A DNA stretch of 64,000 nucleotides from Schizochytrium sp. TIO01 (taxonomy: Eukaryota > Sar > Bigyra > Thraustochytrida > Thraustochytriidae). Both the position numbers and the translations under genes were made by a program. Positions 40,193-47,300 of the stretch are shown here, piece after piece. The DNA is taken from NCBI GenBank assembly GCA_004764695.1, contig SMSO01000034.1, forward strand, positions 4,410,501-4,474,500, written 5' to 3'. The notes beneath the pieces are model-generated. The model searched no databases, was not told the origin of the DNA, and saw only the letters and a program-made list of their open reading frames with translations. Every line of letters starts with the position of its first letter. Positions within the stretch are counted from its first letter, which is position 1.

Positions 40193-42487
40193 TGGGCAGG
40201 ATTACTGTGCGCGAGTGGTCACGAATTGACCGGCTGCAGTCGATCGGCCCGTGCGATAAACACCAAGCTCCCGAAGAGACAATCCTATCCTATCCTATCT
40301 CGTGGAAGAGGACGAAGAGGTTTGGACCAAGCTCAGTGAGCGGCGCAGAGCGAGAGCGATGAAGCAATTGGGATCTTGAGCTCGAAATGTCCTGAACTGA
40401 CACGGGTTTGCATCTGGATTTCGCAGCAGAGCGCCGACAATCAGGCCACAGCGCAAGCAAAGCCTGAGACGCTGGGCACGGCAGCGAGGCCGAGAACCTC
40501 GGGAGCGGAATCAACGAGCAGACCCGCGGGGGTTTAGGCATGCACGCGAAGAGGGTTTGACTGATTGTGTTTGCTCTTTGGCTGGTTGGTTCACCACACC
40601 CGCTGAGAAATAGGAATCGTCGGGCGCCGATGAAAATTGTGCAAGTACAAGTGAAGGTGCCGCTTGAAAAGCTTACTGCGGATCGCAGACAGGCCACACC
40701 ACTCTTTCACTCACTGTCGGGGCTGGAAAGAAAGATATCGTCGATCTCTGGAACGTGGACGATTGATCGGCCAATGCAAAAGGCGCCTTTACGTGCGTAC
40801 CCACGTAGTGAAGACTCGAATGTGTGTGCACGACTTTCAGGGCGACGGCGCTTTAGAAGCCTTGCGTAGATCATATCTCTGTATTCGAGGCGTCGAGTCG
40901 ATCCGGAAATGAGTGCAACCGAACGGAAGTCGAACTGAAAGTGAGTGCACGGGAGGAGGAGGGCGAATACCGCGGCGGCGCCAAAACTTTCTCGAGGAAT
41001 ATCAAATCTGAACAGTCTCATTCCGAACGCTGAGACTGCTTATACTATATATCGCTTTCAGCACCTCGTGCGTAGAAGAAGATACGTACCTAAACTCACC
41101 AAGCATACAGTTTACTTGTTGCGATCATGCCAGTAGTGAAGACTGCGTCTTGGGGCACTTCGTAAGACGCACTTTGTAAGACCAACTGTTTATGCTGGTG
41201 TTCATTTCGCAATCCCCAGTGTTAGTAGCGTGGTGTGATTGCTACGTAGTGGGAGAAGCTTCTTCAAAGTACCAACTCTATGCTTTCGGTTAAAGCGCGG
41301 CAAAGGACAACTCTTTAAGGATAGGTGAAAGACGAATTTTGGTATATATATTGTAGAGAAGAAAACAGCTTGCGGGCTAGATAAGTGCCCATTAAGTCTC
41401 CTCTCAACCTGTGCAAACGCAGACTCTATGCAACAAAGCCCTCTATTGAATCACTCAAGACGGTTCTCGGAGATATCTTTGCAAACTTCTTCTGCTTCTT
41501 CAACCTTGTTCTTCTTCAAGCACAAGTGCTCAACTGGATCTCCACGCAACTTATGATTCTCGACAAATACAGTGAGCCCTGCATACCTGATCGTGCGCTT
41601 TACCATAGCAAATCGAGGTTTGTCCACAAACTGGTACCATGAAACACCGAGGCGTCGTTGATTTCTCCAAGCTTATGAACTAGATGGACCCTATCATATA
41701 TATCCCCCCTAGTCTTGCGAAATCTCCTCGAAAACCTGCAAGCAGCCAAAGCCGCACATGCATAAGGTAATCTCGATCCCATCGAAACTGCGGTGTGCAC
41801 GTTTTTGAACCAGTAGTATTATAGGAAAACGATTTACAGTTCGACTAAGCAACCATCTTAGGTGCAGAATCGTCCACCGAGTCTAGTTACTAGCGCTTAC
41901 TACTACTTTTTTCGTGCAAATTTTACCCAAACTGATAGTCAGAGGTACTGAGTTGACATCTTTTAAGTTGGGTAAAAGCTTCAAGCCAAAACAATTTCTC
42001 AGTGGTGCAAATCTACATCAAAAACTTTCTGTGCCGTCTGCAACCGCGTGGTCAGAGCATTTATTCTCAGCTGCACTAGTTATGCTTGAGCTACATATTA
42101 TCAGGAAACGATTAAAACGTATGTTATGAAACTTGTTGCGACTGGTGAGGTAAATATAACTCTCACTGACATTTTTTATTCTTAGGAAGCAAGTCTGTTA
42201 TTCTCTACATGTTCACTTCTTTCTCGTTTGCTGATCCTTTTTTATCTTTTTTAATTGAAAATGAAGTTTTTAATCTTTTGTATAAAAAGAAAATAACACT
42301 CTAGTGGGACCACACCTTTTAAAATACTATGATTTATGGTATATTATTATTATTGTTATTATTATTATTAACATCTTTGTTAAGAATTGAAGGCTAGGAA
42401 AGAAAATGGCATGGCCAAGGAACCACCAAGCTCCAAACACTACAAAAGAAGCAAACCTCCAATTCAAGCTAGCAAAGTAATTTAACC

Positions 42488-42526
42488 AGACGCTTGGCGT
42501 CTCAGTAAGCGCCCCTCGGGGCGCTT
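42488..42526. other. Two adjacent perfect hairpins before IS607 relic
   Basis: AGACGC-TTG-GCGTCT (42488-42502) is followed four bases later by AAGCGCCCC-TC-GGGGCGCTT (42507-42526). Both stems are perfect and G+C-rich in an A/T-rich neighbourhood. They lie about 100 bp upstream of the serine-recombinase relic. They may be the element's left end or part of a structured RNA; a host origin is possible. Confidence 0.6.
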
Positions 42527-42573
42527 CCCCAAAGGCAATTGCACATACGCAAGTGAAGACGCTGAGCGAATCT

Positions 42574-42783
42574 ATGGCTGCGGCTTGTTCCGGTGGCCGC
42601 GAACAATGCAGCACTGATCGTACCATTACCTACGCCAGAAAGTCCTCCGCCAAGCAGAAAAGGAATTTCAAATGCCCGATTAGTGACCTCCAGCGTGCCT
42701 ATCCAGACGCCCTCGCAGTCTACAAAAACATCGATAGAGGGGCCAACTTCAACCGACCGGGCTTACGCGCCCTACTGGACAAC
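42574..42783 (+). pseudogene. IS607-type serine recombinase (TnpA) fragment
   Basis: The frame from ATG 42574 reads ITYARKSSAKQ, then DLQRAYPDALAVYKNIDRGA and NFNRPGLRALLDN. This is the IS607 TnpA pattern (ITYARVSSAKQ, DLQxxYPxAEVxxDIGSG, NFxRPGLxxLL). GGREQCSTDR just before it corresponds to the end of the MerR-type DNA-binding domain (PGGxRxY). The catalytic Ser is the first or second Ser of ARKSS. The frame then loses similarity and stops at 42846; the HTH and the whole C-terminal half are missing. TnpA is the serine recombinase that moves IS607 elements. It cannot be functional as it stands. Confidence 0.85.
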
Positions 42784-42865
42784 CAAGATTCACCGCAAGC
42801 TTGCACTTTGACTCTTGAAAACAACGGTGCTATTTTTTTAATCTAATTTGAAACCTCAACAAGTT

Positions 42866-43137
42866 AACAAGATATATCAAAATCAAGACAGCTTGAATGA
42901 TGTATCGTTCGTTGGCTTCCTCATTCACAAAGCCGAGCTTTCCTACGATCAGTGGTGTAAACTGATTATTTTCTGAGATTATTGCACTTCGAAAACACGC
43001 GATGAATGTAGTGCCATTGAGGACAGGGCCAGAACATTCAAGATTTCAAATGCCCGAAAGGCAAGCACGTAGCTGATCATGATACCCACACCACCAGCGG
43101 CATCCTTTCGCGATACTTATCTAAGGACATGATTTAA
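42866..43137 (+). pseudogene. TnpB/Fanzor-type nuclease C-terminal relic
   Basis: From about 42914 one frame reads GFLIHKAELSYDQWCKLIIF, a TGA stop, then DYCTSKTRDECSAIEDRART. After a frame change at an 8-bp near-duplication (ATTCAAG/ATTTCAA, 43037-43050) the next frame reads FKCPKGKHVADHDTHTTSGI, LSRYLSKDM and stops at 43135-43137. This is the TnpB end: H-K-A-E, (E)xYTSKTCxxCG, FxCPxCxxVxDRDxHAARNILLR. One zinc-finger Cys and the DRD/Ala-Arg-Asn residues are altered. Only the RuvC/zinc-finger end remains; several hundred codons between TnpA and this point are gone. TnpB and its eukaryotic relative Fanzor are RNA-guided nucleases of such elements. Confidence 0.8.
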
Positions 43138-43151
43138 GAACTGCCTTTGAG

Positions 43152-43181
43152 TCGCGGGTTAGCTTTCATAGTAGCCCGCGA
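43152..43181. other. Hairpin just after the TnpB relic
   Basis: TCGCGGG (43152-43158) pairs with CCCGCGA (43175-43181) around a 16-nt loop, 15 bp beyond the TnpB stop. In IS607/IS200-605 elements the right end and guide-RNA scaffold lie here. The match in position is suggestive; no guide boundary can be seen. Confidence 0.5.
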
Positions 43182-44366
43182 TGGAGGCTTAGCCCAACTG
43201 TGTCACCATAGGAAATGCAAACTTTGCGAATTTTATAGTTTAAACTGTAAGTGTCATATACAAGTAACATATGTGAAAAGGTTAAAACGCCAAGATGATC
43301 GAGAATAAACCAGCTTAGCTCAAATTTTCATCATACCATATATCTCAGATTCAGAATCAAGTTTAAGTTTCAGTTCTGGACATTCTACACCAGTCACAGC
43401 AGCAGTTATTGAACCACCAAAAGAAACCAACATGACTTAGAGAACAAAACGCTCAGGTCACGGCGATGTCATATAGAGCCTAGAGAAACATAGGAAACAT
43501 TACAAGCACGAACACAAGCACAAAACTAAGTCTAAAGCCTGACCACAAGTTCATACAGACGCTATCCGTTGTTACATGCGGTTACAACCGTTGCCATATT
43601 CGACATGCTAGACCAGCACAATTCTGAACAATTAAAATTGGGTTTACAGCCACTCAGTCACGTATCACGCTATACCTTCAGTACGAGTGCCAAATCTTCC
43701 AGAGTTCTGCATCGAGATTGGAAAAAACGACGAAGCAGAGAAACATATCAACATGTACACCTCCAGAAAGTAATTATCGGTTCTTGTCTGAAGGCGAAGG
43801 TGTTAACAGAGCTGTTAGAGTGGAAGCAGAGAAGAGTCACCGATTGTACTCTTGTCGGAATCAGTTACAAAACTCAGAAAGAGAGCTCAATTTAAAGCTA
43901 AATGTCTCCTCGCGCTCCATAGTTGAAGAAGCCACGCATACCAGAAAACCTGCCACCACAACAATTTTGTGATGATAAGTAGGATTTAACCTCAGATTGC
44001 TGCCTAGTATCTCCTATGTTCTCTCACCTTCTCGCGAGCTATCTATTGAGCTCAAGCCAGTATGGAATATGTGCATTAATATCAACATTTCAAAGTTGTT
44101 ACTGAGATAATCTCTACATCTCTACCCTAAACTGAAAGTCTCCTTTGTTCCCCAATTTCCCCACAATAAGAGGCCTATCTATCTCCTGGGCAACCCAAAA
44201 TTTTCCGTATGATTACAATTAAGAATGATCAATTGTGTTGGCATCGTCGGAGCGGTCAATCTAACAAGAGTCAGCAACTGCAAAAGGCTCCTATGCCGTG
44301 GCGGGCATAAGTAGCGACGAGGAGAAGACCCGACGGGAGCGCGAAACTGGATCACTACGGTGCGCT
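43182..44366. other. Intergenic between transposon relic and INPP4-like gene
   Basis: About 1.2 kb. A plus frame near 43340-43550 (SDSESSLSFSSGHSTP, then EKHRKHYKHEHKHKTKSK, with stops) looks like a relic of a Ser- and Lys/His-rich coding segment, not identified. ATG frames at 43569-43972 are unrecognised. Confidence 0.4.
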
Positions 44367-47300
44367 ATGAGGTCCCTTGTGCAAGTTGTTGCTCGTGTGG
44401 ATGCACCATATGTTCCCACAGACGCAGTCCATTTACGCCTTGTAGACCATGGAGGCAGCGAACTGACGGAGAACGAGGTTGGCCAAAGCCGAGGGCTCTC
44501 AGATGAAGGCAAATCGCCAGCAGAAGGTTTTTTCTTTGGAGAGGCAAGAAATCGAAATTGGCGATATAACATCGTCACTCTCACCAACTCCATTCCAGTG
44601 AAGCCTGCGTACAACCCGATTTCGCGAACCTTTGACGTGGTTCTATCATTCGTGGCATCAGAAGCGTCACTTACTGAAGATAGTCCGCACGAGCTGATCT
44701 TTAATTTGTTTGCAGGGTATGGATCTCCATCGGAGACAATTCTTGCACCACCATTGGCACAGTCACGAGTAAAAGTTTCTTCGCTATTAAACGCTGGAGA
44801 AGCAGAGGTAGACCTTAAGTGGAGTCCGGAGGAACGTGCAAAGCTTAGTGTCCAAGACATTTCGAAAGGTGCTAATCAACATGCTTTCGGTCGATTGCAC
44901 ATCTCTATAGTAGAGAAACCTGTTTGGCAGCAGCTCTGTGGGTCAACGCTAGCTCAATACGCAGGTCTCGTCCTGCATCATCCCACAGCACGTTCATTTG
45001 TGAGTTCGTCATTGAAACATTCAAGTTTTGGATTAGATACTCAAACACAGGAGGACCACGAAGTTATCGGCAGTGAAATCGCTTTTGAAACCTCTCTTAG
45101 CTTCACAGTGCCTTCGCAAGTTCTGAGGATGCGCCTTGCACGACTAGTGGAACACTGCCAAAGATGGGGCAAACTCCATTCCGCGGTACATATTGCGAAC
45201 TGCCACTTCGATTCGGAGGCCCTTGCGCTCAAGTATGGCTACCAACGAGTTCGTCTAACACTCACGAGCGCAAGTGACCTCGCGCAGACACAACATGATT
45301 CACCAGCTGGGACTGGAGAAACAAACCCAGTTGCGAAAAAGGCAGCAAATTTCTCTGGTGCATTGCGCGGGATGCTTCAAGGAGCTCAGAAGCGAATGGA
45401 TAGCAACACTGCCGGCTTCACAGCACCATTTCAAAATCCGTTCATGAGCTCATCGAGCAGTTCCCCAGTAGCATCATCTCAACGTTTGTGCAAACCCTTC
45501 GTTCGTGTATCTTTTCAGCATCCAGCAGGGCACCGTGTCAACATCGGTCGGACTGTAGCAGAGATTCGAACTCAAAACCCTGTTTTCCGAAGTTGTTCCC
45601 TTGAAAGCGAATTTGCGTATCTGGATGGACCAAATACTCTTGCTTTCTATGTTCCTCGCAACCCGGATGTTTTGATTATGTTTGAAGTCTTCCATGAACG
45701 TTTTTCAACACTGACTCAAAGGACTACCCACGTACCTATGATGCAAGCCTGTTATCCACTATCTACCTTGCTTGCGATGCAAAGCAATGCTGCATCTGAT
45801 TCAAGCCCAAATATTTCTCTCAATCTCTATGCACATGACCAACAGAGAGATGAGGTATTAGGAACTCTACAAGTGATTGCCAGATCTAATTGTCCTTTTA
45901 ACGATGAGACAGGAGAGCCCGCGCCAAGCTATGTGCCCGGTAATGCATTTTACTTCCACTGGGGTGTGCGCTGGATAGATGACTACCTCCAGCGTCTTAA
46001 TGAAGACGTCGTTACTCTGAACCAATTGCTGAAGGTATGTCAGGAGTCTGAGGAGAATATTACAAACGAACTACAAGCCGACACCCTTTTAACATCATGC
46101 ATGAAACAATCAGTCCACAAAAAGGACTTCAAGGTTGGTGCAATTCCTACAAACCTTCATGCTAGTTTCTGGGTTGTGGAAAGCCGCCGAGCAAAAGGAT
46201 CTGAGACCGCGGTGTCTTCTGCATATCGTGCATCTAATCCTCCACCAGCTCCTCCTCCTCCCCCACCCCTCCTCCTCCTCCACGCCCATCGCGACCTTCG
46301 ACTATGCCCTCTCCACCCTCCTCACCGCCAGCGAGATCACCAGTGCGACAACGTCCACCAGCCCCTGTTCGAGCTAAAGGAGAACCTGACCACGATACAG
46401 CGGACGAGCATGCCTTCCGAGGACCTAGTAAGAGTGTTTCAAGTGGATCTGAAGGTCGCCCAGTCGCACCTCGTCGAAGTGCTCCTTCACGGACTCAAAT
46501 GCAAGAACGCTCGCAATCTGCAGCAGATGTAGATCTAATCGTTGGTGCTCGAAGGAGTGCTCATGCTGCTGCTTTCGCCGCTCGAGCTGAGAATGCACCC
46601 ACTCGGAGCCGCGTACCTGAAGTCTTTGGTATTTTCCCTATAACAACGTGTGGAGCTCCGGCGGCACACTGGCTTGGCTTTAATAGCACTTCAACCTTGC
46701 TTTACGAACGAACACGTCTACATCAACTGAGTCGATCAGCCCAACATGGCTGGGCACCGTTTTTTCCTGACAATATGCCTCATGTGAATACCTCAGCAGC
46801 CGAAGCAGCTGATAGTGTGAAGCAATGGCAAGTTTTGGCAGAATGCTCTCGCAAGCACTTTTTGCGTGAGTCTGTAGTGCTCAGCCAAGCCTTGTCATCG
46901 CTTGTGACTTGCTTCGTTGCAGAGCTTGCTGTGCGTTTGAGCGGGTCCGACATTGCTGTACACCATGTCTCCCAATGGGCAGAATCAGGTGCCGTTGGGG
47001 GTTTGTGGATTCGTCAGCTTTACGAAATAGGCTTCTTGGTAGGGTGGGAAAGCCTCGTCTCATCACAAGGCAAGGAGCTTGGCATGCTTGAAGACGCAAT
47101 TGCTGGTATGGAAGCACTCGAAAAAACAACACGCTTCCATATCATTCCGTATGATGAGATGGTAGATTGTGGTTTCTCTTCGAGAGCATCACAGACACTC
47201 TTTCACAAACCAGGCTGTCAAATTTATGTGCACGTTTCAGATGGCTCTGATTCAAGAGAATCCCCTCGGGGCCTCGGTAGCGGCAATAGTGCTCGAGAGG

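Follow-up and report, generated by a model that had tools for sequence, protein, structure and literature searches.

The window, by which we mean the whole 64,000-nucleotide stretch of Schizochytrium sp. TIO01 DNA analyzed here, has a G+C content of about 45% (0.375-0.532 per 2 kb) and contains, as sequence comparison shows, a decayed, internally deleted IS607-type element with a Fanzor2-type tnpB end. The whole element, a non-autonomous IS607-derived member of a short family, was placed at about 42307..43253 on the forward strand by alignment with 39 other copies; the interval 42488..43181 proposed in an earlier note was too short. Its right end reads GTAAGTG and closes with the TG dinucleotide taken as the core (43252..43253, +). 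The left end is blurred (about 42307, ±40 bp or more), has 9 mismatches to the 21-nt left-end consensus, and is too decayed for a core to be read. Pairwise alignments to the window copy begin at 42314 or later, and their right limit reaches up to 43271.

Remnants of two genes are found within the element. The tnpA remnant (42406..42789, +) comprises the helix-turn-helix part and the first part of the serine-recombinase domain, and intact TnpA from a full-length copy of the same genome (L029) aligns to it from the start methionine (46% over 141 columns, E 2e-31, tblastn). The tnpB remnant (42782..43134, +) retains the 3′ part of a Fanzor2-type gene, namely the end of RuvC, the zinc finger, and the region of the last RuvC aspartate, and is interrupted by stops and one frameshift; intact L029 TnpB aligns to it in two segments (E 5e-15, tblastn). 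Both E-values are those of a tiny search, the subject being the 961-nt stretch alone. The two remnants meet at a deletion junction (42780..42786, +), where about 1.2 kb has been lost relative to the full-length copies and which is shared by the 31 most complete of 40 copies. The right end (43126..43253, +) contains a predicted guide RNA scaffold with stem-loops and a 5-nt pseudoknot (CUUAG/CUAAG).

The serine-recombinase and TnpB-type motifs named in the earlier note are present, with the peptide ITYARKSSAKQ...NFNRPGLRALLD in the open frame 42481-42846, DYCTSKT in the frame 42977-43072, and CPKGKHVADHD in the frame 43021-43137, and both remnants align to intact L029 TnpA and TnpB as just described. 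The profile check proposed there came out only in part: the Resolvase model PF00239 matched a window piece below threshold (E=0.01, 16.4 bits, cut-off 23.3), and a profile search of three shorter window pieces gave no TnpB match. Because profiles alone are weak on the decayed copy, its IS607 identity rests on the intact relatives in the same genome, which match strongly and thereby support the reading of the earlier note, a eukaryotic genome in which an IS607-type element has a Fanzor end.

Downstream of the element, a 755-codon open frame without a Pfam match above cut-off occurs at 44265-46532. Two loci of the same genome carry frames, 2044 and 1647 codons long, for a PfaD-type PUFA synthase.

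A short family with one internal deletion

A search with the DNA of 42480-43190 gave 43 matches in the 64,063,054-base genome, distributed over 40 copies with the window copy included. This is a lower bound (at least 40 short copies), the best 40 of 184 first-look candidates having been scored. The best further match has an E-value of 6.4e-122, and the other copies are 67-79% identical. Thirty-eight of the 39 other copies align across the junction, and the remaining one (L087) starts after it. In the multiple alignment, which covers 31 of the 40 copies (the nine left out include L087), all 31 run through the same junction, the window copy among them.

The short consensus is 961 bp long and lacks positions of about 517-1711 of the 2204-bp L029 element, which bears out the claim of the earlier note that the middle of both genes is deleted. 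A further loss of about 32 nt affects the helix-turn-helix region of tnpA, and because of these two losses the short form cannot encode a whole TnpA or TnpB. The element is indeed decayed, as had been proposed; that it is a full-length element which decayed individually did not hold, since the family was already deleted when it was spreading.

Identity of the 31 copies to the consensus is 80.5-88.1% (median 85.1), and their pairwise identity (median 74.5%) is close to the star expectation. A 22-mer specific to the short form was found at 91 sites with at most 3 mismatches, versus 1 for a reversed-pattern control. Its best match to the 21 full-length loci has 5 mismatches, and it recovers 32 of the 40 known copies. 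At least three of the 91 sites fall in longer relics (C7:185187, C33:1195957, and C32:1280213), and two lie 75 bp apart within one copy. The short family would thus have roughly 100 copies, an estimate from one 22-mer pattern and not a count. It appears to represent one old burst of a non-autonomous derivative, with copies about 15% from the consensus.

With regard to the parent of the family, a decayed longer copy (L088), which is 67% identical to L029, has TG at its right end and shares its tnpA start with the window copy, and for these two reasons it stands nearest the parent. Judged by the sequences, the lineage nearest the parent (TG) thus differs from the one that is intact today (AG).

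Full-length relatives and their genes

A search with the L029 element, with the best 40 of 199 candidates scored, identified 20 young copies at 89-100% identity, L029 included. Seventeen of them reach both ends within 10 bp, and three of these 17 carry a 295-bp insertion; among the 20, one lacks the left end and two lack the right end. Two further near-full copies are 85 and 81% identical; below these, the longest relics have 67-71% identity. The tnpA and tnpB frames are both open in eight copies, so that the earlier note was right to expect intact relatives elsewhere in the genome, and the search for full-length copies that it had proposed was successful. Two isolated ends of the young lineage were also observed, a right end at G000:C30:8395848-8396029 (element positions 2026-2205, 91%) and a left end at G000:C31:6447570-6447752 (positions 26-208, 89%), which are possibly solo ends or another short derivative.

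TnpA matches the IS607-family model NF033518 (144.9 bits, cut-off 110) and Resolvase PF00239 above cut-off, and HTH_17/MerR models, for the N-terminal DNA-binding domain, match below their cut-offs. TnpB matches the Cas12f1-like TNB and HTH_OrfB_IS605 models above cut-off and the NCBIfam model guided_TnpB slightly below it (94.4 bits, cut-off 100). Its best relative of solved structure is mimivirus L79 (PDB 9b0l, E 2.5e-18). Residues D222, P223, G224, E370, R406, and D407 are invariant with seven cyanobacterial relatives, to which the host protein is 32-35% identical over the aligned part. In the available text of PMC10711439, the Fanzor signature is defined as DPG in RuvC-I and an alternative RuvC-II glutamate that precedes the zinc finger by six residues. 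By sequence, the host protein has both of these features, which are invariant in the cyanobacterial comparison along with the last RuvC aspartate, and it is encoded with an IS607 TnpA, as in Fanzor2. The full-length partner accordingly carries a gene for a predicted RNA-guided DNA-cutting enzyme (Fanzor2).

In five pairs of copies, dN/dS of tnpB alone is 0.22, 0.27, 0.29, 0.31, and 0.54; for tnpA, which offers few changes to count, every pair has a dN smaller than dS. The genes of the young copies thus evolve under purifying selection. In a TnpB tree of 57 rows, drawn with a midpoint root for display only, the host protein falls among Fanzor-type rows, on a branch with 100/100 support versus 5 canonical rows; its own branch is long and its placement is flagged as unsure. 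With TnpA as a single query, two loci were recovered from genome contigs, both cyanobacterial, and viral contigs yielded nothing; a TnpB alignment as query recovered 46 loci from the latter. A near bacterial source is not supported, since matches over more than 60 residues to the cyanobacterial relatives all stay at or below 45% identity and the host sits on the long branch of unsure placement just mentioned.

It was also observed that in Fanzor-type IS607 elements the tnpB frame (+1 of tnpA) is open over most of tnpA (L029:1262-3247; cyanobacterial and viral loci L091-L195). In L029 tnpA, the +1 frame contains 0 stops versus 3.3 expected from synonymous shuffles. Twenty-two cyanobacterial tnpA genes with Fanzor-type tnpB have 32 such stops versus 115.7 expected (17 of 22 at P<0.02), 21 other IS607 tnpA genes have 370 versus 360.2 (1 of 21), and 23 tnpA genes from viral contigs, a set that includes two not of Fanzor type (L188 and L195), have 113 versus 189.2 (8 of 23). 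Stops in the +2 frame number 242 versus 278.3 expected in the 22 Fanzor-type genes and 485 versus 478.5 in the 21 others. The genes are related, so that these counts are not independent. The pattern suggests that an N-terminal part of TnpB/Fanzor2, or a fusion, may be encoded across tnpA. In the host copies, the part of the tnpB frame that lies over tnpA has dN/dS values of 1.08, 0.97, 0.72, and 0.32, with one of the five pairs undefined, and because of these values a protein from this part looks little constrained.

Seven young copies with different flanks share an identical tnpA nonsense codon (7 of 7 checked). Because one nonsense codon is common to seven copies at different sites, TnpA probably works in trans. 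Five of the seven (L033, L035, L037, L047, and L048) also carry the same 295-bp insertion within tnpA, which contains CCTAA repeats. The possibility that this insertion is a spliceosomal intron was rejected, as it has no GT at the insertion point.

Element ends, core dinucleotides, and the right-end RNA

In the young lineage, AG is found at all 18 right ends (CTAAGAG in 17 and CTAGGAG in one), and CAG lies left of the element in 15 of 19 readable left ends, with L029, L036, L040, and L046 lacking it. In all 17 copies scored for it, the right end is followed by A or T, and the target therefore looks like CAGW. The first bases after the left CAG were seen to vary among near-alike young copies (L030, L032, L033, L034, L035, L037, L039, L047, and L048). 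For the short family, left ends with up to 6 mismatches to the consensus are preceded by TG in 18 of 26 copies. Among 20 right ends with up to 3 mismatches, 15 show TG; here the scoring consensus itself ends in TG and thus favors it. From these counts, each lineage has a matching dinucleotide at both junctions, AG in the young and TG in the short one. IS607 itself uses a GG core according to the available text of PMC6188088.

One young copy (L042) sits precisely inside an old short copy. Its flanks, when joined, give 16 matches through the junction to the 40 short loci, and in the alignment of one of these (L078) to the joined flanks AG is present once, with no other bases duplicated at the site. 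Apart from the 2-bp core, no target duplication was evident, either at L042 or in the short family. As in IS607, crossover would thus occur at a matching dinucleotide, here AG or TG and not GG, with no further target duplication. L039 is flanked by two copies of a 13-nt stretch (AG and 11 bases), one on each side, and the corresponding repeats span five bases (AG and 3) at L030 and L033 and four at L032; these repeats are not explained by a clean 2-bp crossover.

With regard to the right-end RNA, the last ~120 nt of L029, L033, and the short consensus fold with z of -5.35, -6.53, and -4.77, respectively. The right ends of L046 (-1.14) and L088 (-0.34) fold little or no better than shuffles. 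For the right end of the window copy (z -3.19), 199 of 200 shuffles folded less well. A CUUAG loop can pair with CUAAG just inside the core, with 4 of the 5 pairs left in the window copy. In the available text of PMC10711439, IS607 right-end RNAs are described with a pseudoknot between a loop and five bases adjoining the guide. Among 11 right ends, 92.0% of cells are paired versus 40-47% with slid partners, yet shuffles give 92.3%, and the pseudoknot is paired in 54 of 55 cells. Two features of this test favor structure: a consensus is among its rows, and the structure was derived from the first row. Covariation support in the same 11 right ends is no higher than in shuffles. Because shuffles pair equally well, the pairing reflects conserved sequence and not compensatory change, and covariation was dropped as proof of a selected RNA.

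The short family has therefore lost both proteins and kept the predicted right-end RNA with its pseudoknot. The right end may have been retained solely because TnpA needs it as a DNA end, with the guide-RNA structure as a passive leftover. This reading is somewhat favored, as right-end DNA is expected to be necessary for IS607 movement anyway, the right end is conserved within the short family no better than the rest, pair counts and covariation do not exceed those of shuffles, and L046 and L088 fold poorly. Against it stands the short consensus, which retains a 12-bp hairpin, further stem-loops, and the 5-bp pseudoknot at the z given above.

Origin of the short family and comparison with known systems

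The window copy is best explained as one member of an old non-autonomous IS607 family that was mobilized in trans by full-length TnpA, a reading to which we assign a probability of about 0.87. A TG-core IS607 element encoding TnpA and Fanzor2 (TnpB) would have lost about 1.2 kb, from the middle of tnpA to the 3′ part of tnpB, with both ends kept through the deletion. TnpA from full-length copies would then have excised and inserted the short form in trans, presumably via a circular intermediate and by serine-recombinase crossover at the 2-bp core, with no further target duplication. About 100 short copies would have arisen in this way and then diverged by about 15% each, and an AG-core sister lineage would have stayed intact and moved recently. 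More speculatively, the retained right end might still have served as a guide RNA for Fanzor2 made elsewhere. The observations that carry this reading are the shared deletion, the order of the copy number, the star-like divergence, the same dinucleotide at both junctions, the intact and selected paralogues, and one precise AG insertion.

Spread by another transposase, by retroposition, or by segmental duplication is improbable. In favor of such a route, TnpA action on the short form is itself only deduced, and the left tips of young copies are more variable than the rest of the element. However, the short family has the ends of the full-length lineage, matching dinucleotides at its two junctions, and flanks that vary among copies, and its right ends show no tail. 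Ordinary decay, with every short copy truncated independently from a full-length element, is highly improbable and is refuted for the bulk of the family: in-place decay does happen, as longer relics at 67-85% exist, but the 31 aligned copies have one junction, and the same ~32-nt loss in the helix-turn-helix region is seen in their consensus.

A far-reaching extension of mobilization in trans would be a split RNA-guided transposon system in a eukaryotic nucleus. In such a system, about 100 protein-less short elements with their own guide RNAs, expressed when young, would borrow TnpA to move and Fanzor2 from a few full-length copies to cut empty sites, so that they are copied back or favored, and the right-end RNA would act in trans. 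We regard this as a tentative and rather unlikely proposal. This genome combines recently moved Fanzor2 elements with open genes, a decayed sister of another core, and about 100 protein-less copies with guide ends, and thus allows one to ask directly whether copies without proteins persist or spread with the help of a Fanzor2 nuclease.

MITEs and other non-autonomous deletion derivatives are short, reach high copy number, and depend on a full-length partner. The short family likewise has its partner's ends, a shared internal deletion, and many copies. Unlike MITEs in the strict sense, it has neither terminal inverted repeats, its ends being unrelated by eye, nor target duplication, and it keeps a guide-RNA-like end. 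In Anabaena, IS607 elements and MITEs occur together, and the available text of PMC3542288 describes the MITEs as having no evident similarity to the IS inverted repeats there. TnpB-only bacterial elements have been suggested as possible non-autonomous derivatives of IS607 or IS200/IS605 (PMC3627910, available text). Like the short family, they are IS607-related and lack a working tnpA; they encode TnpB, whereas the short family has lost both genes.

In the open-licence literature, no paper title was found on non-autonomous or miniature IS607 derivatives in eukaryotes or on an abundant IS607 deletion derivative that keeps a guide-RNA end, and no paper on IS607 together with a thraustochytrid. 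Two papers on viral transposons or MITEs do mention IS607 (PMC6004678, PMC4495683). IS607 with Fanzor2 in eukaryotes is known.

The Fanzor2 or "pro-Fanzor" TnpB of cyanobacterial IS607 elements (Yoon et al. 2023, PMC10711439, available text) and mimivirus L79 share the DPG and glutamate with the host TnpB. Cyanobacterial IS607 Fanzor-type systems also have right-end RNA stem-loops and a guide-adjoining pseudoknot, which in the host are predicted. The host differs from the cyanobacterial Fanzor-type proteins in its low identity (32-35%) and long branch, and its core is AG or TG, not GG. Eukaryotic and viral IS607 elements with Fanzor2 were already described, namely ACa-1/-2, ISvMimi, ISvAR158, and ISvNY2A (Bao and Jurka 2013, PMC3627910). 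In the available text of that source, they resemble the host elements in encoding an IS607 TnpA and a Fanzor2-type TnpB, in lacking terminal inverted repeats and target duplication, and in residing in a eukaryotic host or virus. Unlike ACa-1/-2 and the ISv elements as described there, the host has 20 young copies, a TG lineage, and about 100 copies of a deletion derivative.
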